Notes under the pieces: generated by a model
Told to the model about the DNA's origin: nothing
The model's input: the letters and a program-made list of their open reading frames with translations, nothing else
Databases searched by the model: none
In this document: positions 129-54,616 of the stretch, one piece after another
Layout of the letters: each line of letters opens with the position of its first letter
Numbering within the stretch: the first letter of the stretch is position 1
Assembly (NCBI GenBank): GCA_039033415.1
Contig: JBCCCR010000011.1
Span: 1 to 64,000, forward strand
Direction: 5' to 3'
DNA length: 64,000 bases
From: Pseudomonadota bacterium
Lineage (GTDB): Bacteria; Pseudomonadota; Gammaproteobacteria; Xanthomonadales; SZUA-38
Made by a program: the position numbers and the translations under genes

Positions 129-3100
129 ATGTGGTTATCCGATACCTCGGTCAAACGACCGGTGTTCGCCACCGTACTGTGCGCGCTGCTCCTGGCGTTC
201 GGCGTCCTGTCATTCCAGCAGCTGCCGCTTCGGGAGTACCCCGACGTGGCGGCCCCGATCGTGTCTGTCTCGACGGGTTATCCCGGCGCCTCAGCAGAAG
301 TGGTTGAAAAACGCGTCACCCAGCTGGTGGAAAGCGAGATCAGCGGCATCGAGGGCATCAAAGCGATCACCTCCCGCTCCCGCGATGAGTTCTCCAACAT
401 CAACATCGAGTTCGACCTGGGTCGGGGGATTGAAGACGCAACAAACGACGTGCGGGACCGCGTTTCGCGGATCCTTCGGCGGTTGCCCGACGACGTTGAT
501 CCGCCTCGGGTCGAGCGGCAAAACTCAGATGCTCGGCCGATCATGTATGTGACGATCAACAGCTCCGAATTTGGCCTGATGGAGCTGACCGACTACGTCG
601 AACGCTACGTCATCGACCGGTTTTCCAGCATCGCTGGCGTTTCCCAGATCAATGTTAACGGCGGTGGACGGCCGTCGATGCGCATCTGGATCGACCGTCA
701 GGCGCTGGCCGCGCGTGGACTGGCGGTCACCGACGTCGAGGAAGCGCTGCAGGCGGAAAACGTGGAGCTGCCGGCCGGGCGTATCGAAACCCGCGATCTG
801 GAATTCACCGTTCGCATGGGTCGCAACTACGTAACGGCAGACGACTTTCGGCGGCTGGTGCTGGCGACTGGGGATGACGGGCACAACATCCGGCTGGGCG
901 AGGTCGCCCGGGTAGAGGTGGGGCCGCGGGAACAGCGCCGCTTCTTCCGCACCAACGGCCAGGACGCCGTGGGGATGGGCATCATCAAGCAGTCCACCGC
1001 CAATACGGTCGAAGTGCTGACGGCGGTCACCGAGATGATGGGGCGGGTCGCCGACGACTTGCCGGACCACATGTCGATCGCACGGAGCCAGGACGATTCG
1101 GTCTTTATCCGCGCCGCCATTCGCGCGGTTTTTCTGACCATTGCGGCCACCGTCGGGTTGGTTGGACTGGTGATTCTGCTCTTCCTTGGGAACGTGCGGG
1201 CCACCCTGATCCCGGTGTTGACCATCCCGGTCTGTCTGATTGCGGCGTGCATTGCGCTGGCCGCGTTTGACCTGTCGGTCAATCTGATCACGCTGCTGGC
1301 GCTGGTGCTGTCCATTGGCCTGGTGGTGGATGACGCCATTGTGGTGCTCGAAAACGTGCATCGGCGTATCGACTCGGGCGAGCCGCCGCTGCTGGCGGCA
1401 TTTCGCGGATCGCGCCAGGTGGGTTTTGCGGTGATTGCCACCACGGCCGTCCTGGTGGCCGTATTTCTTCCGATTATTTTTCTCGACGACAACATCGGGC
1501 GAATCTTTTCCGAGCTGGCGGTGACTATCTCCGCCGCGGTGATTTTCTCCAGCGTGCTGGCGCTGTCGCTGGTGCCGATGCTTTGTTCGAAAATGCTGAA
1601 GCCCACCAACGACGGCAATCCGCTGTCGCGCTGGGTGGACGCGCGCTTCGATCGGATGGCGGCGGGCTACCAGCGCGCCGTAGGGTTTGCGCTTCGCCAG
1701 TCCTGGGCCTTCGTGGCGGGTTTGCTGGGTGTCGGCGTTGGCCTGTTCTGGCTGTTCCAGACCGTGCCTCAGGAGTACGCGCCGCAGGAAGACCAGGGCA
1801 TGTTTTACGTCCCGTTCAAGGCCCCGCAGGGCACCAGCATCGGCAAGATGGCTGGCTACATCCCGGAGCTGGAGGGGCCGATGCTGGAGCTGGTCGAGTC
1901 CGGCGACGTGCTCCGCGGAGTGACCATCATCCCCGGCTTCGGCGGGACCGCAGCCAATCAGGGTGTGCTGGCTGTGGGCATGCATGAGTTCGAGCCGGAC
2001 AAGATGAGCACGCAGGAAGCGATGGGCGAGCTGATGGGTCAGTGGCGCAACATTGCCGACCTGCGGATGTTTACCTTTATGCGGTCCGGCTTGTCCCGCA
2101 GCGGCGGCGGCCAGCCGGTTCAGTTTGTCATCGGCGGCCCCAGTTACGACGAGCTCGCACGCTGGCGGGACCTTATGCTCGACGCCGTGGCGGAAAACCC
2201 GGGCTTCTCGCGGGTTAGCTCTGACCTTGAAGAGACTCAGCCCCAGCTGATGGTGCGGGTCGACAAGGATCGCGCCGCCGCTCTGGGCGTCAGCGTGCGC
2301 AACGTTGGGCGCACGCTGCAGGCGATGATGACCGAGCAGGCCGTCACCACGTACGTGGTCGACGGCGAAGAGTATGACGTGGTGATTCAGGCGGTGGCGT
2401 CGCAGCGCGCAACGCCGTCAGATCTATCCAACATTTATGTGCGGTCCGACACCTCCGGCGAGCTGGTGTCGCTGAATAACCTGATCCAGGTGGAAGCCGT
2501 GGGGGGTGCCAGCAACCTCAACCGCTACAACCGCATTCGAGCATTGACGCTCTCGGCGAGCCTCAAAGAGGGGTATGCCCTGGGCGAGGCGCTCGATTAT
2601 CTGGTGGAGACGGTGCGGCGCGAGCTGCCCGCGGGTGCCCAGATCGACTACAAAGGCCAGTCGCTCGAATACAAGGAAGCCTCGGGAGCCATTTACTTTT
2701 CCCTGGGTATGGCGCTGCTGGTGGTGTTCCTGGTGCTTGCCGCTCAGTTTGAAAGCTTCAGTCAGCCGCTGGTGGTGATGATCACCGTGCCGCTGGCGAT
2801 CATCGGGGGGCTGCTCGGGCTGCTCGCGTCTGGCCTGACCTTCAACATCTTTAGCCAGATCGGCATTATTCTGCTGGTGGGAATCGCCGCCAAGAACGGC
2901 ATCCTAATCGTGGAATTTATCAACCAGCTTCGCGACAGCGGGCGCGACTTTGAGGAATCGATCCTCACCGCAGCGCGAATCAGGCTGCGCCCGGTGCTGA
3001 TGACAACCGTGTCAACCACCATCGGCTCAGTTCCGCTGATCCTGGCCACCGGACCGGGTTCCGAAGGCCGGATTGTCCTGGGGGTTGTGATGTTTTCCGG

Positions 3101-3251
3101 CGTGGCGGTCGCCACCGTGTTTACGCTGTTTATGGTGCCAGTGTTTTACAAGCTGCTGTCCCGCGGCTCAACCTCGCCCGAGGCGCTGTCCAAAGAGCTG
3201 GATGGTCTGCGCGAGGAGATGCCCAACCTCACGGTTGATCGGGGCGCTTAA
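129..3251 (+). CDS. RND-family multidrug efflux permease (AcrB/MexB type)
   Basis: This is the inner-membrane proton-driven pump of a tripartite efflux system, exporting drugs or other hydrophobic compounds together with an adaptor and an outer-membrane channel. The 1040 residues match the family length. It starts with the typical N-terminus SVKRPVFATV, has two halves each with a large periplasmic loop, and keeps the proton-relay residues: the Asp pair at 401-402 (GLVVDDAIVVLEN) and the transmembrane Lys at about 922 (AAKNGILIVEF). I chose ATG 129, 11 bases after AGGAG at 114-118, over ATG 66, which would add 21 Pro/Arg-rich residues not typical of the family. Substrate cannot be told from sequence. 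No outer-membrane factor gene is in view. Confidence 0.95.
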   Translation: MWLSDTSVKRPVFATVLCALLLAFGVLSFQQLPLREYPDVAAPIVSVSTGYPGASAEVVEKRVTQLVESEISGIEGIKAITSRSRDEFSNINIEFDLGRGIEDATNDVRDRVSRILRRLPDDVDPPRVERQNSDARPIMYVTINSSEFGLMELTDYVERYVIDRFSSIAGVSQINVNGGGRPSMRIWIDRQALAARGLAVTDVEEALQAENVELPAGRIETRDLEFTVRMGRNYVTADDFRRLVLATGDDGHNIRLGEVARVEVGPREQRRFFRTNGQDAVGMGIIKQSTANTVEVLTAVTEMMGRVADDLPDHMSIARSQDDSVFIRAAIRAVFLTIAATVGLVGLVILLFLGNVRATLIPVLTIPVCLIAACIALAAFDLSVNLITLLALVLSIGLVVDDAIVVLENVHRRIDSGEPPLLAAFRGSRQVGFAVIATTAVLVAVFLPIIFLDDNIGRIFSELAVTISAAVIFSSVLALSLVPMLCSKMLKPTNDGNPLSRWVDARFDRMAAGYQRAVGFALRQSWAFVAGLLGVGVGLFWLFQTVPQEYAPQEDQGMFYVPFKAPQGTSIGKMAGYIPELEGPMLELVESGDVLRGVTIIPGFGGTAANQGVLAVGMHEFEPDKMSTQEAMGELMGQWRNIADLRMFTFMRSGLSRSGGGQPVQFVIGGPSYDELARWRDLMLDAVAENPGFSRVSSDLEETQPQLMVRVDKDRAAALGVSVRNVGRTLQAMMTEQAVTTYVVDGEEYDVVIQAVASQRATPSDLSNIYVRSDTSGELVSLNNLIQVEAVGGASNLNRYNRIRALTLSASLKEGYALGEALDYLVETVRRELPAGAQIDYKGQSLEYKEASGAIYFSLGMALLVVFLVLAAQFESFSQPLVVMITVPLAIIGGLLGLLASGLTFNIFSQIGIILLVGIAAKNGILIVEFINQLRDSGRDFEESILTAARIRLRPVLMTTVSTTIGSVPLILATGPGSEGRIVLGVVMFSGVAVATVFTLFMVPVFYKLLSRGSTSPEALSKELDGLREEMPNLTVDRGA

Positions 3252-3394
3252 GGCGCTCCGTCTGCGCTGTAAACCTCATCGGGGGAGTGGTTGTGCGGCC
3301 GTTAGCCGGTCGGCTGATGCTCCGCAAGGTCTGGATTCGGCTGTGTGTGGGTGAGCCACCCGCCGGCTTGGCAGGTGGCCGGTAATGCAGTCGG

Positions 3395-4534
3395 TCAGGT
3401 GACCGGGATCGCCGCAACCATGTGCGAGATGCGCTTTCGCTGCATCTTCAGGCTGTACTCGAGCTCCCGCATCCGCGTACTGATAACGGTCTTGCTCCAT
3501 CGCTCCTGAAGATCGGCTCGCTTCTTCTGAACGCGCTGCACCTGCAGCTCCTGCCAGGCTTTGACGGTTGCCAGAAACTGCTCGTATTCGGCGTCCAGCG
3601 TATCGCGGAACGAAGTTTCGCCGGACTCGATACGGCTCAGTCGGGCCTGCGCGCGTTCGAACTGAAGCTTCACCTTAGCGCGCAGGATTTGAATCTTGGG
3701 CGTGCGGCGAAAATTCTTTGCCAGGCCGAACCAGCTGCAGACGTTGATAAACCATTTGTTCAGGTCGATCTGCCACCAGCGTACGCCGTTGCGATAGTCG
3801 CCTTCGAACATGTGGTGGAAGTTGTGGTAACCCTCCCCGCAGGTCACGAGCGCGATGAGCCAGTTATCGCGGGCCGTGTTTTCTTCGGTGTAGGGCTGCT
3901 TGCCCCACATGTGGGCCAGCGAGTTGATCATGAAGGTCACCTGATGATTCAGCACCAGCCGGGCGAAGCCGGCCAGCAGCAGGCAGCCCCAGAGGTCGCC
4001 GGCCATCCAGCCGATCAGGGCGGGGACGCCCAGGTTGGCGGCCCAGGTCAGCAGCCAATAGTTGCGATGCTGCCACATGACAATCGGGTCGCGCTTCAGA
4101 TCGGGCACCTTATCCAAGCCGATTCGCGCCGGTTCATAGTCGCGGATCATCCAGCCCATGTGGGCATACCAGAAGCCGCGTTTGATCGAGTGCGGGTCCT
4201 TTTCTTCCTCGTCGACATGGCGATGATGAACCCGATGCCGGGCCGACCACTGAAGGATGCTGTGCTGCAGGGCAAACGCGCCGCCGATGGCAAAAAACAG
4301 CCTTAGCAGCCAGTGAGCTTCATAGGTGCGGTGAGACCACAGCCGGTGATAGCCGGAGCCGATGGCGATGCCGCAGTAAACCCACAAGAGCAGGGCGCTG
4401 ATCCAGGCGGTGGCGGAGAAGTCGTTGAACCATGCGTAGACGGGCACCGCGGTGACCGTTACCACCGTGGTTACGGCAAACATGATGGTGGTGGCCCACT
4501 CGATGGGCGCCGCTGTTGTTTCTGAAGAACTCAC
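3395..4534 (-). CDS. Acyl-CoA / fatty acid desaturase (delta-9 type)
   Basis: This is a membrane di-iron desaturase that introduces a double bond into saturated acyl chains using oxygen. All three histidine boxes are present: HRLWSH at 63-68, HRVHH at 100-104 and HNFHH at 237-241. Hydrophobic segments flank the boxes as expected. The last ~90 residues are a charged, probably coiled-coil extension also known in gammaproteobacterial desaturases of this length (379 aa). It is transcribed divergently from the GT41-like gene. A TATGAT-like -10 (complement of 4574-4579) lies about 40 bp before the start, and a FNR-like palindrome lies further upstream at 4644-4657. The system is oxygen dependent, so redox regulation would make sense, but this is inference. 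Confidence 0.93.
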   Translation of the reverse strand: MSSSETTAAPIEWATTIMFAVTTVVTVTAVPVYAWFNDFSATAWISALLLWVYCGIAIGSGYHRLWSHRTYEAHWLLRLFFAIGGAFALQHSILQWSARHRVHHRHVDEEEKDPHSIKRGFWYAHMGWMIRDYEPARIGLDKVPDLKRDPIVMWQHRNYWLLTWAANLGVPALIGWMAGDLWGCLLLAGFARLVLNHQVTFMINSLAHMWGKQPYTEENTARDNWLIALVTCGEGYHNFHHMFEGDYRNGVRWWQIDLNKWFINVCSWFGLAKNFRRTPKIQILRAKVKLQFERAQARLSRIESGETSFRDTLDAEYEQFLATVKAWQELQVQRVQKKRADLQERWSKTVISTRMRELEYSLKMQRKRISHMVAAIPVT

Positions 4535-4643
4535 GATAGAAAAGCCTGAATAGTCAGCCGAAAACGACGGGTTATCATAGCATCGGAGATCGGCGGTTAC
4601 GTGTTAAATCGTTACATCAGGTATCGTCAGGCCCGTCGATCTC

Positions 4644-4657
4644 TTGACCTGGGTCAG
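4644..4657. promoter_or_regulatory. Candidate FNR/CRP-superfamily operator
   Basis: TTGACCTGGGTCAG is a 14-bp interrupted palindrome, one base away from TTGAC-N4-GTCAA, a form used by FNR/ANR-type regulators. It lies in the 200-bp divergent region between the desaturase and the TPR/GT41 gene. No biochemical support; a chance match cannot be excluded. Confidence 0.3.
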
Positions 4658-4733
4658 GATTTGCTTTGAACACCCGCCGTAGTCCCGCAAACTATTGATT
4701 AACATAATAATACCTGGCCAGGGTCAGCGTACG

Positions 4734-6851
4734 ATGGCGCCTGAGGATGCGCTGGCGGCGGCGCTGCGCTGGCATCAGGCTGGGCAGACGGCCGCCGCTC
4801 GAGCGGCTTATGACGCCATTTTGGCGGCGTTTCCCGAGCAAACCGAGGTGCTGCGGCTTTCGGCGGTGCTGCACCTCCAGCGAGGTGAACCGGCCGCCGC
4901 CGCGCAGCAGCTGGCAGACGCCCTGCGGCTGCAGCCCCAGCTCTCCGGTGCGCCGGAGGTCGAGCTGAAGCTCTTGCTAGCGCGGGCTCTCCGTGACAGC
5001 GGTAACCTCGTCAGCGCGCTGCAAACGCTGAACGAAACGGCGAGTCGCTATCCGGAAACCGCTCAGGTGTATGAGCAGCTGGGCGCCACTCATCATCTGG
5101 CCGGTCGGCTCGACGAGGCGACAAGCGCGTATCGTCGCGCCGTTGCGTTGGAACCCGGCGCGGCGGCGCTGAACGCCAATCTGGCTGCCGTGCTGGCGCA
5201 GGCGGGGGACGCTGAGGGTTCTCTTAAACACGCGGATGCGGCGCTGACGCTGGATCCGAGCCTCGGCCCGGCCTACAAGGTAAGAGGCACTGCGCTGGCA
5301 ACGCTCGGGCGCCCCGAGGAAGGGCGCGCGGCGCTGCAGCGCGCAGTGGAGCTGGCGCCTGAGCCGGACGGCTGGTACCAGCTCGGCGTGATTCTCGACG
5401 AGCTGGGGCAGTGGGACGATTCGCTGGCGGCCCAGGCCCAGGCGTTAAAACTTCAGCCAAATTTTGGGCCGGCGCTCAGCGAACATCTATTCCTGCAGCG
5501 GAGGCTCTGCCAATGGGCCGGGGCTGAGGCGCTGGCGTTGCGCTTCGAGGACGTCATGGATCAGGGTGCGCCTGGCCTCAAGCCGTTTTCGTACCTTTCT
5601 CAGGTGGATGATCCGCCGCGGCACGCGAGCTGCGCCAGGCTCTGGGCGGCCCAGATCCGAGAACGAGCGGCGTTTCTGCCGCGGCATTCACGGCCCGCTG
5701 AACCGCTGGCCTGGGACGGAACGCGGCCGCTTACGGTGGGCTACCTTTCTTCGGGATTTCATCGACACCCAACGGCCTGCCTGACGGCTGAGTACTTCGA
5801 ACGTACCGATCGTCACCGGTTTCGACAGGTTGCGTTTTCGGTGGGGCCGGACGACGGCAGCGGTCTGCGTTGGCGAATCCGAGACGCGATGGACCGGTTT
5901 CACGATCTCAACGGACAGCCTCTGGCCCGGATTGGTGAGGCCATCGCCAGTGAACAGGTGGATATCTTGGTGGACCTGCGGGGCTATGGCGGTGGTGCGG
6001 TGACCGAGGTGCTCGCGACGCGCCCCGCGCCCCTGCAGGTGAACTGGCTGGCCTATCCGGGAACCATGGGCGCCGATTTCATGGACTATGTGGTGCTGGA
6101 CCCGTTTGTGGCCACCGAGGAAGTCTTGGCTAACGTCGACGAGGCACCGGTGATTCTGCCGGGCAGCTACCAGCCGAGCGACAGCACACGCCGCTTCGAG
6201 GATCGCGTGCCGACCCGCGAAGCGTGCGGGCTGCCGGCGCAGGGAATGGTGTTTGTCAGCTTCAACAACTCGTATAAGTTCTCACCGACCATCTTCGGCG
6301 CATGGATGGCGATCCTCAGAGCGGTACCGGACAGCGTGCTGTGGCTGCTGGCGGGCAAAGCGGGCAGCAGCACCGACGCCAACCTGCGGCGCGAAGCGGT
6401 CCAGCAAGGTGTCGACCCCTCCCGGCTGGTGATGAGTCCCAAGCTACCGCATCTGGACTACCTGGCGCGGCTTTCGGTGGCTGATCTCTTTCTGGACACG
6501 TTGCCGTACAACGCCCACACCACGGCGTCCGATGCGCTGTGGGCCGGCTGTCCGGTGCTGACCTGCGCTGGGCGATCGTTTGCGGCCCGGGTCGCCGGCA
6601 GCCTGCTGACCAGCGCTGGGCTCAGCGAGCTTGTGGTAGAAAACCTGGAGGAGTATCAGCAGCTCGCGATCAGCCTGGGTATCAACCCTCAGCAGCTGGC
6701 AGCAGTGAAAACCCGGTGCGTGGCGGCCCGCGGCAGCCGGCTGTTCGACACCGCGCGCTTCTGTCGTGACCTGGAGCAGGGTTTTGTCGAGATGGCTAGC
6801 CGGGCGGCAGCTGGTCTGACGCCGGGGCCAATTGATCTCCGTCAGCGGTGA
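4734..6851 (+). CDS. TPR-repeat protein with GT41 (O-GlcNAc transferase / SPINDLY-like) catalytic domain
   Basis: Residues 1 to about 270 are tandem tetratricopeptide repeats, recognised by the A-x-Y-x-x-A and E-P-x-x-A patterns. The C-terminal ~430 residues match the bacterial OGT/SPINDLY transferase domain: VGYLSSGFHRHPTA, then a stretch reading DLRGYGGGA...RPAPLQVNWLAYPGTMGADF, and DLFLDTLPYNAHTTASDALWAG. Such enzymes transfer a sugar from a nucleotide sugar to proteins or glycans; the acceptor is unknown. An open frame continues upstream to a TTG at 4695, but I prefer ATG 4734 because the protein then begins at the first TPR-like helix. No strong ribosome site is visible for either. The last 56 bases overlap hemY on the opposite strand. 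Confidence 0.88.
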   Translation: MAPEDALAAALRWHQAGQTAAARAAYDAILAAFPEQTEVLRLSAVLHLQRGEPAAAAQQLADALRLQPQLSGAPEVELKLLLARALRDSGNLVSALQTLNETASRYPETAQVYEQLGATHHLAGRLDEATSAYRRAVALEPGAAALNANLAAVLAQAGDAEGSLKHADAALTLDPSLGPAYKVRGTALATLGRPEEGRAALQRAVELAPEPDGWYQLGVILDELGQWDDSLAAQAQALKLQPNFGPALSEHLFLQRRLCQWAGAEALALRFEDVMDQGAPGLKPFSYLSQVDDPPRHASCARLWAAQIRERAAFLPRHSRPAEPLAWDGTRPLTVGYLSSGFHRHPTACLTAEYFERTDRHRFRQVAFSVGPDDGSGLRWRIRDAMDRFHDLNGQPLARIGEAIASEQVDILVDLRGYGGGAVTEVLATRPAPLQVNWLAYPGTMGADFMDYVVLDPFVATEEVLANVDEAPVILPGSYQPSDSTRRFEDRVPTREACGLPAQGMVFVSFNNSYKFSPTIFGAWMAILRAVPDSVLWLLAGKAGSSTDANLRREAVQQGVDPSRLVMSPKLPHLDYLARLSVADLFLDTLPYNAHTTASDALWAGCPVLTCAGRSFAARVAGSLLTSAGLSELVVENLEEYQQLAISLGINPQQLAAVKTRCVAARGSRLFDTARFCRDLEQGFVEMASRAAAGLTPGPIDLRQR

Positions 6852-47526: not shown

Positions 47527-50500
47527 TCAGTTTGGCGGCGTGATCTGCTGGAGCGGGAGATTGCTTCGCTGCCACTGGATCTCGACGTCACCGCCAACCT
47601 GCACATCCATGCTGTCGAGCTGCTGGCTGCTGTCGCCGTTGATCGTACGCTCCATGGTCCCGCCGGTGAGAATACTTGGCGTGGTCCAGGTGCAGCCTGG
47701 ACAGTGGGCCTTGAAGCTCGCGAGATCCGCTGATCCCTGGCTGTTGAGCACGGTGCCGTCGGAGGCCACCACAACCCAGCGCGGCTGTCCCTGCGTGTCG
47801 TAGAAATAGACCGCGCTGAACTCCTGATCGCCCTGGCGATGGGTTCCGATCCCCCAGCCGCCTTCATCACCGTTAAAGTACTGATCGGTGGTTACCGGAT
47901 CGACGTCAGCGGTTGAGCTCAGGTCGAAGAAACTCAGCAGCTCACCGCTGGATTCGCCGTCGATCTCGAACGTCATCACCGCTTCAGACTCGTTCAGAAA
48001 GCTGATGCGCGCCTGGCCGACCACCTGACCCACCGGGGTATTCTGGCGGATGTCGCCGCTGAGCTGGAAGCGGAAGATGTCGGCGGTCACCGTATCGTTG
48101 ACCAGCGACTGGTCGCCGATGGACTGCACGTAGTACCAAAGCGGCAGGCGGTTTTTCTCCGCGGTGTACCACGCGGAATAGAGCTGATCGCCGGCAAAAT
48201 GCACCTCGATACCGTTGCCGGGCCGCAGGGCGTTGAACCAGAAGCCCTGTCTCGGCGCCACCGTCGGGCCGCTGTCACCCTGACAGCTGGTGATCACGTC
48301 ACAGTTCTGGGCCACCTGGCCGGAAATGACGGACGCTGAGCCGGTGCTCGAAAAGCCGCCGGCGTGCACGCTGCCAAGGTAGTCGACGGAAAAGCTGTCG
48401 CCGCAGGCAAACGATTCGTTGAGCTGCACCGTCACGTCCACCTGGGAGGAACCGCCGCTGCCCACGGCGCCGACGGCCAGGGCGCTCCTCTCCAGTTGAA
48501 TATCGCCGGACAGGCCGGGGCTGTCGGCGCTCGGGTGGAAGATACATACGGCGCTGTTGTCCGGGACGGAATTGGGCTCATTGCAGGCGTAGGTCAAGCC
48601 GTCGAACGGCGGGTTAGCCTGACTCTGGATGCCGATCGTCTGTGAATCACCCTGGCGGCCGTTGCCGGGGCCGTACTGATAGACGATCTGGTTCGTGCCG
48701 TCGTAAAGAATCGCCTGGAAGTCGAAATTGGGAGAGCTGGGGCCGCCGAAAAAGCCATCGACATTCCATTGGAAGATGTTGCAGCCGGCGGAACCTGCAG
48801 ATTCGCCGGGTCTTGGGCAGTTCTCAAAGTACTGGTGGTAGGCCGTTTGGATCACCACGTCGTCGTGCAGCGGATAGATGCGACCGCCGGTGCCCGAGCT
48901 GACCGCCGTCGGCAAGGGGCAGTCGTTACTGACATCGCCGCCGATGTCCTGCTGACTGGTGGAGATGTAGCCGTTGGTCGACACGGTTACACCGGTCAGA
49001 TTGGTGCCGTAGAAGTCAAAGCCGGTGCCACCCAGCGTGACGTCAGCCCAGCCGTCGTCTTCAGCCGCTGCCTGATTACCGTCGGTGGCGGTGAAATTAA
49101 GCTGGGTGCCGGTGCCTGCGATGTCCTGAAAGCTGAAGCTGCATGAGGGCTCCTGGCTGTCGGCAAACGTGTACCCAAAGCTGTCGGGGCCGCCAAAGCG
49201 CTTTGCCGCGCCGCTGGCGCCGCCGGCCGGCGCAAACGCGGCGAAGGTGTCCACCGCGGACGCGCTGCCGCTGTTGCGGAGTGTAACCGGATAGGACCAG
49301 GACTCGCCCGGTTCAATTTGGCTGTCGCCGTCGCCGCACACTTCAGCCGGTTGGCCCACCTGGGAGAGGTCCAGCGCCGGCGCTTCCACCACAGCCCCGA
49401 GACTGGCGCTGCTGCGGCAGCCGGCGCCGTCGATGATCCCGACTGTGACAGTGCCGGAAAACGGCTCGTGATAGATCGCCGAGACGTTGGCGTCCGTGGA
49501 ATCGGTCAGGCCGTCACCGTCGACATCCCAGCTGAAGGTGTAGGGAGCCTGGCCACCGCTGACCGCAGCGCTGAAGTCCGCCGATTCGCCGACCGAGAAA
49601 ACGCCGCCCTTGGTGCTGGACATCTGGACCTGAGGCGCGTCACAGCCGGAGCGCCCGTTGAAGGTCATGGCGCCGGTGTTGGTCGGATCAAGCCAGTCGG
49701 ACATCCGGCCGCTGGGGGTGCCGTTACCGGTCCACGATACGTCCATCCGCCCGTACCAGTCGGGCTGATCGTTGTCCTGCGCGGTGCCGCCGCTGCACGC
49801 GGCAAAGCCGCCTTCCAGCTGGCCGACAAACAGGCCGTTGTTGTTCCAGATGCCTGAACCCGACGAGCCGCCTTCGGTGGTGCCCGTATCCCAGGCCGCG
49901 ATCCGCCAGTGGGTGCTGGAGCCGTCGCAGCCGCCGAGATACGGTGACTTGCAGAGTTCGTCGAAGTCGAAGCTGATACGCTTGGCGTGGCCCGCCGGAT
50001 GGTGGATGCCGGCGACGCCGGCCACACCATTGCCGGTGTGATCCCAGCCCGAATAGAACACGTTGTAGGACGCCGGTGGCGTCTGGTTCAGGCGCAGCAG
50101 CGTGAAGTCAGACGGTGCGTAGGTCGACAGCAGCGAGGTGCCTTCGATAGTGTCGGTGAAGCCGCCGCGTGAGATGGCCTGGCCGCTGCTGACGCTGCCC
50201 GGCGCCCGGCACTGGTCGCTTTCGTAGTTGAAATACACAACAACCGAGTTCGCTTCTGCCTCCGTAGACAAGCAGTGGTTGGCAGAGCTGAAAATGCGGT
50301 CGTCATTGCTGGTCGTGTTGAGCATCTGGCCGCTGCAGACAAACGAGCTGCCCCCGCTCTGGAAGGTGAAGTGCCCGACCGATGCAATCTGATCCTCCCA
50401 GGTACTGCGATCAGGGCAAGCCACATCCACGTTACAGGCGCCGGATTTCTGCAGCTCCCCGGGCTTCCAAAATTCCCGGTAACCTGATGAGACCTGACCG

Positions 50501-51027
50501 ACTTTGAGCTTCGCGTGGGCCAACGCTGCGGGGTCTCCCGTGACCTCGATCGTGAGCGAGTCGCCGGGTACAAACGGCATCGGTAGAACGTTCTGTGCGT
50601 TGTTGTGCTGATCCGTGTAGGGTCCTCGAACCCATTCCCGAGAGCTGTCGTAAACGTAGACCGACACGCCGCGGGGAAGCCAGAAGTGGCTGAAAACCAG
50701 GTCGAGCGACGTAGCGCCTGGCGAACTGATATTCCAGGCGAAGCTGCCGGCGCTGTCGCCAGCGGCCGCCGGCTCCAGCCACTGCTGCACGGGCTGGCTC
50801 AGCGCGTAGCGTACTCGGCCGCTGACATAACCCCCGTCAGCAAATTTTTGGGCGTCGTCAGCCCGTTCGGCGGCGGCGTCAACGCCGGCCACTTTGAGTT
50901 CGCCAAGCACGCGAGCTGCGCCAAATTTGGGCTCCGGCGCGCTGGGGCCTGGGACGGCAGTCTGGGCGTACGCCTGACCTGCGCCAACTAGAAAAAAGAA
51001 AGCTGTGGCAACTAGGGTGTGCTTCAT
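47527..51027 (-). CDS. Large exported lysyl-endopeptidase-like serine protease with PKD domain
   Basis: The precursor has a signal peptide, a ~170-residue propeptide and a mature start at SGACNVDVACPD that matches Achromobacter lysyl endopeptidase. The catalytic triad is in place: His in FSSANHCLS, Asp in PSDFTLLRL, Ser in EGGSSGSGIWN (His251, Asp307, Ser389 counted from ATG 51027). A PKD-like domain (SWDVDGDGLTDS), a beta-sandwich region and a ~250-residue C-terminal part rich in WYY/FDS patterns follow. I prefer ATG 51027 because the signal peptide then starts at once; ATG 51051 is also in frame. No GFE tag. Confidence 0.88.
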   Translation of the reverse strand: MKHTLVATAFFFLVGAGQAYAQTAVPGPSAPEPKFGAARVLGELKVAGVDAAAERADDAQKFADGGYVSGRVRYALSQPVQQWLEPAAAGDSAGSFAWNISSPGATSLDLVFSHFWLPRGVSVYVYDSSREWVRGPYTDQHNNAQNVLPMPFVPGDSLTIEVTGDPAALAHAKLKVGQVSSGYREFWKPGELQKSGACNVDVACPDRSTWEDQIASVGHFTFQSGGSSFVCSGQMLNTTSNDDRIFSSANHCLSTEAEANSVVVYFNYESDQCRAPGSVSSGQAISRGGFTDTIEGTSLLSTYAPSDFTLLRLNQTPPASYNVFYSGWDHTGNGVAGVAGIHHPAGHAKRISFDFDELCKSPYLGGCDGSSTHWRIAAWDTGTTEGGSSGSGIWNNNGLFVGQLEGGFAACSGGTAQDNDQPDWYGRMDVSWTGNGTPSGRMSDWLDPTNTGAMTFNGRSGCDAPQVQMSSTKGGVFSVGESADFSAAVSGGQAPYTFSWDVDGDGLTDSTDANVSAIYHEPFSGTVTVGIIDGAGCRSSASLGAVVEAPALDLSQVGQPAEVCGDGDSQIEPGESWSYPVTLRNSGSASAVDTFAAFAPAGGASGAAKRFGGPDSFGYTFADSQEPSCSFSFQDIAGTGTQLNFTATDGNQAAAEDDGWADVTLGGTGFDFYGTNLTGVTVSTNGYISTSQQDIGGDVSNDCPLPTAVSSGTGGRIYPLHDDVVIQTAYHQYFENCPRPGESAGSAGCNIFQWNVDGFFGGPSSPNFDFQAILYDGTNQIVYQYGPGNGRQGDSQTIGIQSQANPPFDGLTYACNEPNSVPDNSAVCIFHPSADSPGLSGDIQLERSALAVGAVGSGGSSQVDVTVQLNESFACGDSFSVDYLGSVHAGGFSSTGSASVISGQVAQNCDVITSCQGDSGPTVAPRQGFWFNALRPGNGIEVHFAGDQLYSAWYTAEKNRLPLWYYVQSIGDQSLVNDTVTADIFRFQLSGDIRQNTPVGQVVGQARISFLNESEAVMTFEIDGESSGELLSFFDLSSTADVDPVTTDQYFNGDEGGWGIGTHRQGDQEFSAVYFYDTQGQPRWVVVASDGTVLNSQGSADLASFKAHCPGCTWTTPSILTGGTMERTINGDSSQQLDSMDVQVGGDVEIQWQRSNLPLQQITPPN

Positions 51028-51115
51028 CGATTTTACATCCAAATCGGTCATGCCTGAATGATATACCGTCTACATCAAAAAACCGTTGTTCGATTTGGAG
51101 CTCAATCGGTGATCT

Positions 51116-52855
51116 TCATCGCACTTTGGCGAACCGATAGCCCGCAAACTGAAATTCCTGGCTTTTGGGGTCAAAAACCAGCCTTTCCCCGAGCCCTGTG
51201 CCCAGACCTGGAATAAAAAACTGATTGGGGCCCGGGCCCGGGACGAAAGGGACTTTGGGCTTTAGGGAGATAAACACCGGGAGCTTGTACTCGCCGAACA
51301 GGCGGCCGTTCTCGACCTCCAGCTGCACCGTTTTGAGCTTGAGGCGGTCGCTGAAAAAGTCTGGGTTGACGATCTCGTATCGTCCGGAGGGCGGCAGGTA
51401 CGCCCCGGAGGTGGTTTTGACCTCGGGCGGCAAAGCCGTGCCCAGCAGGAAACTCTGGCCCTGATAGCGGGCCAGCAGCGCCTCACGGCCCGCCAGCTGC
51501 ACCGGCCTCACCAAAATCTCCTCCATGATGCTGAACTGGATATCCATCACGCCCAGAAGCCGATAGGCCAGCTCGTACCAGCCGTCGTCGCGCGCTGTGG
51601 CGCGAAAATTGCGGCCCATCATGGTCATCTTGTAGCGCTCCGGCTTGCCGTCGAATTCCAGCAGGCCCACCGGACTTACGTAGCCCAAGGCCATCGTCGA
51701 AGGCAGCGCATTGCCGGGCAGCGGTATCCGATCGGGCAGCGCCTTCTGTTCCCGGTCCGGCGGCGCAATGCCGGCGCTCTCCTCGAGCCAGCGGTCCAGA
51801 ATATTCCGGGATTCGTCCACAATAAAATCGATGCCGTTGGCTGAGTTGGCCACCAGGGCTAGGCCCAGCCCCTGGTCCGGCAGGAGAATAATGTTCTCGC
51901 GGAAGTTCAGCGTATTGGCGTTGACCCGCCAAACGTTGTCGACCGCAAACCCTTCGGTGTTGGTCAGCTGCCAGCCGAGGCCTGACCGATTGTCCAGGTC
52001 CAGCGGCACGTCGAGATTCTGCGGGGTGCCCATCTGTTTGCGCGCCGCCAGTGAGAGCACCGACGACTCACGCTCATTCAGGAAGAAGGTCAGCAGCCGG
52101 CCGACGTCGACAATCGAGCCCCGCAGACCCAGGGCCGCAAGGTTGCTGGCATAGACGTCCGGCTCAACCCGACGCCGCTTGTCGTGGCCGCGCGAGTCGT
52201 CCGGGTGGGGTGCAAAGCCGGTCTGATTCATTTCCAGGGGCATCAGGATCCGCTGCTGAACGTAGTCCTGGTAAGCGAGCCCGCTGCGTTGCTGCACCAC
52301 GTGCCCCAGTACCCCGTAGGCGAGATTGGAGTAGCCGTAGATCTGCCCGGGTGGGCTCGCCAGGTACAGCTCCGGCAGGGGCGCGAGCGCTGCCGGCGGC
52401 TCTGCCTGGTAGTAGCCGGCCAGCACGTTGCTCGGCAGGCCGCTGTGATGGCTGAGCAGCTGCTGCAGCTTGGGGATAGCGCCCGATTCGAAGCGACTGG
52501 AAAAGCGGGCTTCTGGCAAGACCTCGGTCAGCGGGTCGGTCAGGGCCACGCGGTCGTCTTCGACCAGCTGCATCGTCGCCACTGCGGTGACGAGATGGGT
52601 CAGATTAGCGAAGGGGAAACGGGTTGACCGGGTAAAAGGCCTCTTGGCCTTGCGGTCAGCGTAGCCCATGGTCAGCGTCAGCACCGGACCGTTCCGATCC
52701 ACCAGGACCAGCGCAGCGCCGGCAATTTTTTCCTTGCGGGCCGCTTGCTGAAGGTCCTGTTTGAGCTCCTCCAGCCAGACGCCTTCCTGGGCTATGACGC
52801 TTTCCGCGGGAGGCAGTCCAAGCCACAGCGCTCCCAGCAAGATCAACCTCCGCAT
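51116..52855 (-). CDS. Beta-lactamase-fold serine hydrolase homologue lacking catalytic Ser and Lys
   Basis: A signal peptide (RRLILLGALWLGLP...ESVIAQ) precedes a class C beta-lactamase/esterase-like domain. At the place of the usual S-x-x-K the protein reads RFPFANLTHLVTAVATMQLVE: the Ser is Asn84 and the Lys is His87. The Y-x-N element is kept (YSNLAYGVLGHVV), but no H-x-G is seen where LNFRENIILLPDQG occurs. The C-terminal ~170 residues are beta-rich. It is an uninterrupted gene, so it is a probable pseudoenzyme, not a broken gene. Divergent from an intact homologue. Confidence 0.85.
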   Translation of the reverse strand: MRRLILLGALWLGLPPAESVIAQEGVWLEELKQDLQQAARKEKIAGAALVLVDRNGPVLTLTMGYADRKAKRPFTRSTRFPFANLTHLVTAVATMQLVEDDRVALTDPLTEVLPEARFSSRFESGAIPKLQQLLSHHSGLPSNVLAGYYQAEPPAALAPLPELYLASPPGQIYGYSNLAYGVLGHVVQQRSGLAYQDYVQQRILMPLEMNQTGFAPHPDDSRGHDKRRRVEPDVYASNLAALGLRGSIVDVGRLLTFFLNERESSVLSLAARKQMGTPQNLDVPLDLDNRSGLGWQLTNTEGFAVDNVWRVNANTLNFRENIILLPDQGLGLALVANSANGIDFIVDESRNILDRWLEESAGIAPPDREQKALPDRIPLPGNALPSTMALGYVSPVGLLEFDGKPERYKMTMMGRNFRATARDDGWYELAYRLLGVMDIQFSIMEEILVRPVQLAGREALLARYQGQSFLLGTALPPEVKTTSGAYLPPSGRYEIVNPDFFSDRLKLKTVQLEVENGRLFGEYKLPVFISLKPKVPFVPGPGPNQFFIPGLGTGLGERLVFDPKSQEFQFAGYRFAKVR

Positions 52856-53008
52856 GGCTTCATCATAGTGCAAGCGGGGTAGGAGGTCTCCCCGGGCATC
52901 ATTCACGGGATCTTAGGCCTGGATCGATGCCATGCCGTCCAGCAGATGTCGCTGGTGCGCGATAGCCGATACACTGCTGCCCGGTTCGGATCGGGAGAAA
53001 ACACGCTG

Positions 53009-54616
53009 ATGTTGACGCACATCATGGCCTTTGGAATGGGCATCTGGACAGCTGCCGTACCGCCGACCTTAGACAGCGTGACCGCTGGCATCGAAAAACG
53101 CATCGAGCGCGAGGAAATCCGCGGTGCGGTGCTCGGGGTGCAGCAGGGGGCGGATAATCGGATCACCGGTTTTGGTCGCACGGGCCCGCAAAACCCGGAC
53201 TCGCCGGGTCCGGCGACGCTGTTTGAGATCGGCTCGATCAGCAAAGTGTTTACGGCACTGCTGGCGCAGCGGCAGGTCCAGGCCGGCCGTGCCTCCTGGG
53301 ATGAACCGATCAGCCAGCGAATCAGCGGCACATTTGCCGACCCACGGGTCGGCGCCATCACCTGGCGTGAGCTGGCAAGCCATAGCTCCGGACTGCCCCG
53401 GCTGCCCGACAATATGCCGATGGAAAACGCGCTCGATCCCTATGCCGGCTTTGACCGTGCGCTGCTGGACGCTTATCTGCTGAGCTACCGCCCAGCGTCG
53501 CTGGAGAAGCAATACGCCTACTCCAACCTGGGGATGGGGCTCCTAGGGGAGCTCGCGGCCAACGCCGCAGGCCTGCCGTACGCTGAGGCGCTGCAGCGCG
53601 ACGTGTTCGAGCCACTCGGCATGAACGATACGGCCGTGGCGCCGGCACCGCAGAAGCTAAAGCGGATGGCGACCGGCTTTAGTCAGGGGGCGGACATGCC
53701 GCGCTGGGGCGGGTTTGACGCGCTGGCAGGCGCTGGCGCGATCGTCTCAACCGCCTCGGACCTCCTCCGGTTTGCGCACCTGAATGCCAATCCCGCCGAA
53801 GCCGGGGCGATGGCGGCATCACTGGCGGCAATTCGTGAGGTTCAGGGTTCGGGTGAAACCGCGCTTGGGTGGCACATTGAGAAAAGCGCTGGTGACAGCC
53901 CAGTGTTCTGGCACAACGGAGGCACCGGGGGCTTTGCGAGTGCGCTGGCTGTGGACCCTTCGAAGGGGCTTTCGGTGGTGCTGCTCGCGGCGTCAACCGA
54001 CTACAACGGCATCACCGAACTGGCGCTGGCACAGCTTGCCGGCGAGGTTGAGGCGCCGGCAGACGGTCCGGATCTGTCGCCTTACGTGGGGACCTTCCAG
54101 GTGTCGCCGGCGATGGTACTGACGTTTTTCCTCGACGACGGCCAGCTCTTTGGCCAGGCCACCGGTCAGGGCGCTTTTCCGCTCGCGGTAGCGGGAGAGC
54201 ACGCGTTTTCCTTTGAGCCCGCAGGCATCACGCTGAGCTTTGAAGATTTTGCGGACAGTCGAGCACAGACCATGGTGATGGTGCAGGCGGGCCGGACGAC
54301 GCGAGCGCCTCGCGTAGCCGACGATAAAGGTATCCAGCGCATGACCGAGATCGAGATCGATGCGGCGTCGCTGGCGCCGCTGGCCGGTGTCTACGCATTG
54401 ACCCCCGCGGTGAAAATTACGGTTGAAGCGCGCGATGGCCAGCTCTTTGCCCAGCTGACGGGCCAGCCGGCGTTTCCGGTGTTCCCGTTCGAGCCTGATA
54501 AATTCTTTTACAAGGTGGTAGACGCGCAGCTCCACTTTGAGCGCGACGATTCAGGTGCCGTGAGTGGCTTGACGCTCGTCCAGGGAGGGCGACAATACGC
54601 GCCAAAACAGCCATAG
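53009..54616 (+). CDS. Exported class C beta-lactamase-family serine hydrolase
   Basis: The N-terminal hydrophobic segment is short. The active-site set is complete: SISK in FEIGSISKVFTALL, YSN in KQYAYSNLGMGLLGELA and the H-x-G element in VFWHNGGTGGFASAL. Two C-terminal DUF3471-like beta domains follow (each LAPLAGVYALTPA / LSPYVGTFQVSPA plus GQLFAQ-type strands), to 535 aa. ATG 53009 has GGAG upstream at about 12 bp. Likely a peptidase or esterase acting on the cell wall or small esters; not a proven beta-lactamase. Confidence 0.88.
   Translation: MLTHIMAFGMGIWTAAVPPTLDSVTAGIEKRIEREEIRGAVLGVQQGADNRITGFGRTGPQNPDSPGPATLFEIGSISKVFTALLAQRQVQAGRASWDEPISQRISGTFADPRVGAITWRELASHSSGLPRLPDNMPMENALDPYAGFDRALLDAYLLSYRPASLEKQYAYSNLGMGLLGELAANAAGLPYAEALQRDVFEPLGMNDTAVAPAPQKLKRMATGFSQGADMPRWGGFDALAGAGAIVSTASDLLRFAHLNANPAEAGAMAASLAAIREVQGSGETALGWHIEKSAGDSPVFWHNGGTGGFASALAVDPSKGLSVVLLAASTDYNGITELALAQLAGEVEAPADGPDLSPYVGTFQVSPAMVLTFFLDDGQLFGQATGQGAFPLAVAGEHAFSFEPAGITLSFEDFADSRAQTMVMVQAGRTTRAPRVADDKGIQRMTEIEIDAASLAPLAGVYALTPAVKITVEARDGQLFAQLTGQPAFPVFPFEPDKFFYKVVDAQLHFERDDSGAVSGLTLVQGGRQYAPKQP

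Follow-up and report, generated by a model that had tools for sequence, protein, structure and literature searches.

A Serine Hydrolase Homologue with an Apparently Lost Ser-Lys-His Apparatus: A Probable Pseudoenzyme under Purifying Selection

Introduction

A paper citing Zhang et al. 2026 (PMC13188892) reports that the DL-peptidase Lip3 of Paenibacillus (PDB ID: 9sn1) is induced by lipopeptides and cleaves syringafactin. The protein described here has the two-domain architecture of Lip3 at only 17% identity. Lip3 has peptidase activity and cleaves DL-amide bonds; our protein lacks the catalytic Ser, Lys, and His. In Pab87, a CubicO peptidase (PDB ID: 2qmi), a PF00144 domain is likewise joined to a lipocalin-like domain at the C-terminus, which drives octamerization (PMC2651629). 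Pab87 differs in being active, and its C-terminal domain is approximately half as long. Alignment with class C and esterase structures, as proposed in the original prediction on this DNA, indicated that the modeled N domain has the fold of the class VIII esterases and class C β-lactamases such as EstB (Z about 34) and AmpC. Unlike these, our protein has neither S-x-x-K nor K/H-x-G, and it carries an extra C-terminal domain.

A search of the open-access literature returned no account of a pseudoenzyme lineage conserved within the PF00144 superfamily. Pseudoenzymes and the PF00144 fold are both known; the element for which the search found no precedent is such a lineage with a traceable enzyme-to-non-enzyme series. 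Complete, partly eroded, and fully lost sites are found in one architecture and form a natural series for following the change from enzyme to presumed binding protein. Routine annotation as a β-lactamase or serine hydrolase would mislead for the members that have lost the site. The analysis concerns a divergent gene pair in a 64,000-nucleotide stretch of a Pseudomonadota genome (contig JBCCCR010000011.1; called the window here).

Results and Discussion

The gene pair and its products

The pseudo-serine-hydrolase gene (called the dead gene here) lies on the minus strand at 51116..52855 and encodes 579 amino acids from an ATG at 52855. The longest minus-strand open reading frame spans 51116–52906 and opens at a GTG at 52906; the ATG at 52855 is the probable start. 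The frame is open throughout, as had been reported. Judged by eye, the segment encoded at 52784..52855 on the same strand (MRRLILLGALWLGLPPAESVIAQ) is a probable Sec signal peptide, and the N-termini of the orthologs are likewise hydrophobic. The dead protein is presumably exported.

On the plus strand, a catalytically complete PF00144 serine hydrolase with a C-terminal DUF3471 is encoded at 53009..54616. Its open reading frame runs from 52946 to 54616, with the start probably at 53009. The motifs S-I-S-K (53234..53245), Y-S-N (53519..53527), and H-N-G (53912..53920) are all present, in agreement with the full active site originally assigned to this protein from its letters. The divergent intergenic region between the two probable starts, 52855 and 53009, measures 153 bp (52856..53008), exactly the distance first given. 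No sigma-70-like promoter was detected in the scanned part of this region. Both proteins had been predicted to be exported. The prediction is supported only in part: by visual inspection the dead protein has an ordinary signal peptide, and the signal of the plus-strand enzyme is weak.

The catalytic site

Both proteins match PF00144, with 158.5 bits for the minus-strand protein and 192 bits for the plus-strand protein (cut-off 27). The PF00144 domain of the dead protein (class C β-lactamase/PBP-like) is encoded at 51797..52756 on the minus strand, and it is supported by the Pfam match, the AlphaFold2 model, and the fold match. Alignment with relatives and paralogs places N-L-T-H (N84 and H87; 52595..52606) at the S-x-x-K position and V-N-A (V311; 51917..51925) at the H-x-G position. 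The Y-S-N motif is retained (Y175–N177; 52325..52333). The alignment thus reproduces the ANLTH, the missing H-x-G, and the preserved Y-x-N of the original prediction. Considered as an SxxK acyltransferase, that is, a serine β-lactamase/PBP enzyme, the dead protein has Y-x-N and lacks both S-x-x-K and K/H-x-G. Its score against the class C β-lactamase family NF033085 (NCBIfam) is 48.2 bits, under the cut-off of 415. A search for S-x-x-K along the whole minus-strand protein found none, which excludes, at the level of the sequence, the displaced Ser/Lys pair that had been named as the counter-evidence to look for.

The absence of S-x-x-K goes beyond chance, because 43 of the genome's 45 PF00144 places keep the aligned motif and because an ortholog with 87% identity shows the same ANLTH, YSN, and VNA. 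On this alignment the Ser-Lys-His apparatus has been lost from an intact gene, and the loss is common to the lineage. The minus-strand protein is very probably a pseudoenzyme.

The 45 PF00144 matches in this 6.4-Mb genome (G000) represent a large set of β-lactamase-fold serine hydrolases. The one other place without the motif (L120, G000:C15:76759-77619) is a second degenerate paralog, with R-A-M-T-R replacing S-x-x-K, and is possibly another pseudoenzyme. A single 901-residue open frame (L114, G000:C1:80445-82124) contains two PF00144 domains with S-x-x-K in each.

Predicted structure

The AlphaFold2 model obtained from the family alignment (pLDDT 84, pTM 0.87) suggests that the PBP/class C fold is kept. 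The best solved relative of the model is Lip3, with a Z score of 38 over 514 residues that include both domains. The C-terminal domain comprises residues 370–579 (51119..51748, minus strand). This segment of approximately 200 residues has no Pfam match, and of the two halves of the protein it is under the stronger constraint. Folded alone, it gave no Foldseek match with E under 0.001. When the modeled domain was aligned by itself in VIA-align, it matched the C-terminal domain of Lip3 (Z 8.4 over 179 residues), and its last approximately 95 residues matched the C-terminal domains of Pab87 (Z 9.5), Ulm16, D-aminopeptidase, and IS11. A possible eight-stranded calycin barrel in the C-terminal half is hinted at by Z scores of 6–7 against lipocalins and FABPs over approximately 95 residues. 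The match to Lip3 leaves the idea of a new fold unsupported. The dead protein is predicted to have the Lip3-like architecture, in which the PF00144 fold is combined with this same C-terminal fold.

Relatives and loss of the site

The contig scan yielded only one close relative, the 87% identical ortholog, which is in a Lysobacterales metagenome-assembled genome. Of 398 genomes from the order, 14 carry the dead gene; this patchy distribution suggests that it is dispensable for most relatives. Among the members from the order with a readable site, Ser is absent in all, with N, G, D, E, or R at position 84, and Lys is absent in most, with H, K, R, or E at position 87.

Relatives across the class were found by searching with the C-terminal domain (residues 370–579), and they fall into two groups. 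The first consists of seven gammaproteobacterial proteins (L066 and L069–L074), which match the dead protein with E values of 1e-68 to 1e-122. They belong to the same full-length family and share its C-terminal domain, but they keep S-x-x-K, Y-x-N, and H-x-G intact, whereas the dead protein has lost the first and the last of these. Since seven relatives in the class with the same C-terminal domain retain a complete site, the family probably descends from an active enzyme. The second group is dead and comes from other orders (L067, plus L068 and others from the order of G349). In its nine full-length proteins Lys is replaced by T, S, M, or G and the His of H-x-G is missing; Ser survives in only some of them.

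We built a full-length tree without the catalytic columns. A branch with 100/100 support divides the complete-site proteins from all dead members, and the tree requires one change for the loss of His, three for Lys, and four for Ser. In the N-domain tree rooted with paralogs, the best topology has two separate losses, but the AU test does not reject a single dead clade (p 0.118). The data therefore support a claim of at least one ancient loss, without fixing the number at one. In the f63 group, Lys and His may have been lost before Ser. This order is suggestive only, because Lys survives without Ser in three members from the order of the window (L035, L038, and L088).

Families of this order share the loss of the site, as do at least two others in the class, and the protein has been kept intact by selection in five or more bacterial families. 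The orthologs share the loss of catalytic residues and are under purifying selection, as is the mark of a pseudoenzyme. The original assignment as a probable pseudoenzyme is thereby strongly supported, with conservation that reaches far outside this genome.

G769 has a dead-site copy (L104) together with a partial second copy (L105), a fragment with H-N-G still at the third motif; dead and possibly active forms may coexist there. In G047 the C-terminal domain is found in a 226-residue open frame at a contig end, with the remainder cut off (L087).

Selection

Comparison of the window with the 87% identical relative gives the dead gene a dN/dS of 0.109 and its intact plus-strand neighbor one of 0.096. 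The dead gene is under purifying selection. Its PF00144 domain has a dN/dS of 0.131, and its C-terminal domain one of 0.053. Mean pairwise identities of the N and C domains are 0.43 and 0.34 in the complete-site members, 0.34 and 0.34 in the dead group from other orders, and 0.34 and 0.39 in the dead group from the order of the window. Constraint has therefore moved from the catalytic to the C-terminal domain. In the latter clade H224, R319, D354, and P380 have become invariant or nearly so, and R319 is common in the dead group from other orders as well.

Function and neighboring genes

Taken as a whole, it is reasonably probable that the dead protein is a hydrolase without catalytic activity that is exported and has been retained for binding or as a scaffold. 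It would act in the periplasm or extracellularly and without acyl-enzyme chemistry. The principal conserved interaction may lie with the C-terminal domain, which is Lip3-like and partly lipocalin-like, and the former substrate cleft could serve as a non-hydrolytic binding surface or a structural platform. A more specific proposal is that Lip3-like DL-peptidases became non-catalytic binders in Gammaproteobacteria, perhaps twice, with the cleft and the lipocalin-like domain receiving or carrying lipopeptides or peptidoglycan fragments and possibly coupled to the adjacent protease. We regard this as speculative and unlikely.

Two alternatives concern the protein itself. The gene could be recently broken and on its way out, as the missing catalytic residues and the patchy occurrence might suggest. 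The frame is nevertheless open in the members seen whole, and the low dN/dS and the loss shared by families of this order and of the class contradict pseudogene status, so that this explanation is extremely improbable. Alternatively, the active site may have been rebuilt for a different reaction that does not proceed through an acyl-enzyme. The newly invariant H224, R319, and D354 and the D or E found at the Ser position in several members would fit such a change, but residues 84 and 87 vary within the clade and the N domain is now under less constraint than the C domain. A rebuilt site is accordingly improbable. Retention as a binding or scaffold protein is the reading we prefer to both.

The other two alternatives concern the neighbors on either side. 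The original prediction was of a functional pair whose dead member would sense or bind the substrate of its active neighbor. The two proteins belong to one superfamily and are probably both exported, and the divergent layout with its short intergenic region is kept in the 87% identical relative, which is of the same genus. The arrangement has been seen only within this genus, however, and is missing from the next relative. A local duplication giving rise to both window genes is rejected, as the proteins are not sisters (AU p 9.5e-5). Each gene also occurs without the other. In G002 the dead gene is present, the divergent side holds an indolepyruvate-oxidoreductase-like gene (judged from its translation), and the search for an ortholog of the plus-strand enzyme found only a 28% identical paralog as the best match. 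G003 has a homologue of the plus-strand enzyme at 38% identity, and the dead protein was unmatched there at the threshold applied. In a genome with so many PF00144 matches (45), two adjoining PF00144 genes are unremarkable. The pair model fails on these grounds and is very unlikely. A somewhat better candidate, though still rather unlikely, is that the dead protein acts as a partner, chaperone, or inhibitor of a lysyl endopeptidase and, in the periplasm, binds this enzyme or its propeptide. A secreted homologue of this enzyme (Achromobacter protease I) is encoded at 47527..51051 on the same strand, 64 bp downstream of the dead gene. It matches PDB entry 4nsy with an E value of 2e-51, and the triad is visible in its sequence. 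The dead gene is directly upstream of the protease in six genomes from two families (f1 and f4), and protease homologues are found in 11 of 13 carriers as against 53 of 286 non-carriers (Fisher p 1e-6, a statistic that ignores phylogeny). On the other hand, carriers in f5, f11, and f12 have the protease elsewhere or not at all, and most protease-bearing genomes are without the pseudoenzyme.

For a binding or scaffold protein, the likeliest cellular context would be the downstream group of envelope or secreted-protease genes, not the divergent hydrolase. A SixA-like phosphohistidine phosphatase (PF00300; 46999..47526, minus strand) comes next after the protease and is a conserved neighbor. It follows the protease in the window, L045, L046, and L051, directly follows the dead gene in L049 and L088, and is also among the neighbors in f12. 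The gene for a YceI protein is next in L049, L051, and L088 and lies near in L087. In G061 (L055), two consecutive frames after the dead gene, 629–2590 and 2594–6145, both match the lysyl-endopeptidase cluster; they are either tandem copies or the result of a frameshift.
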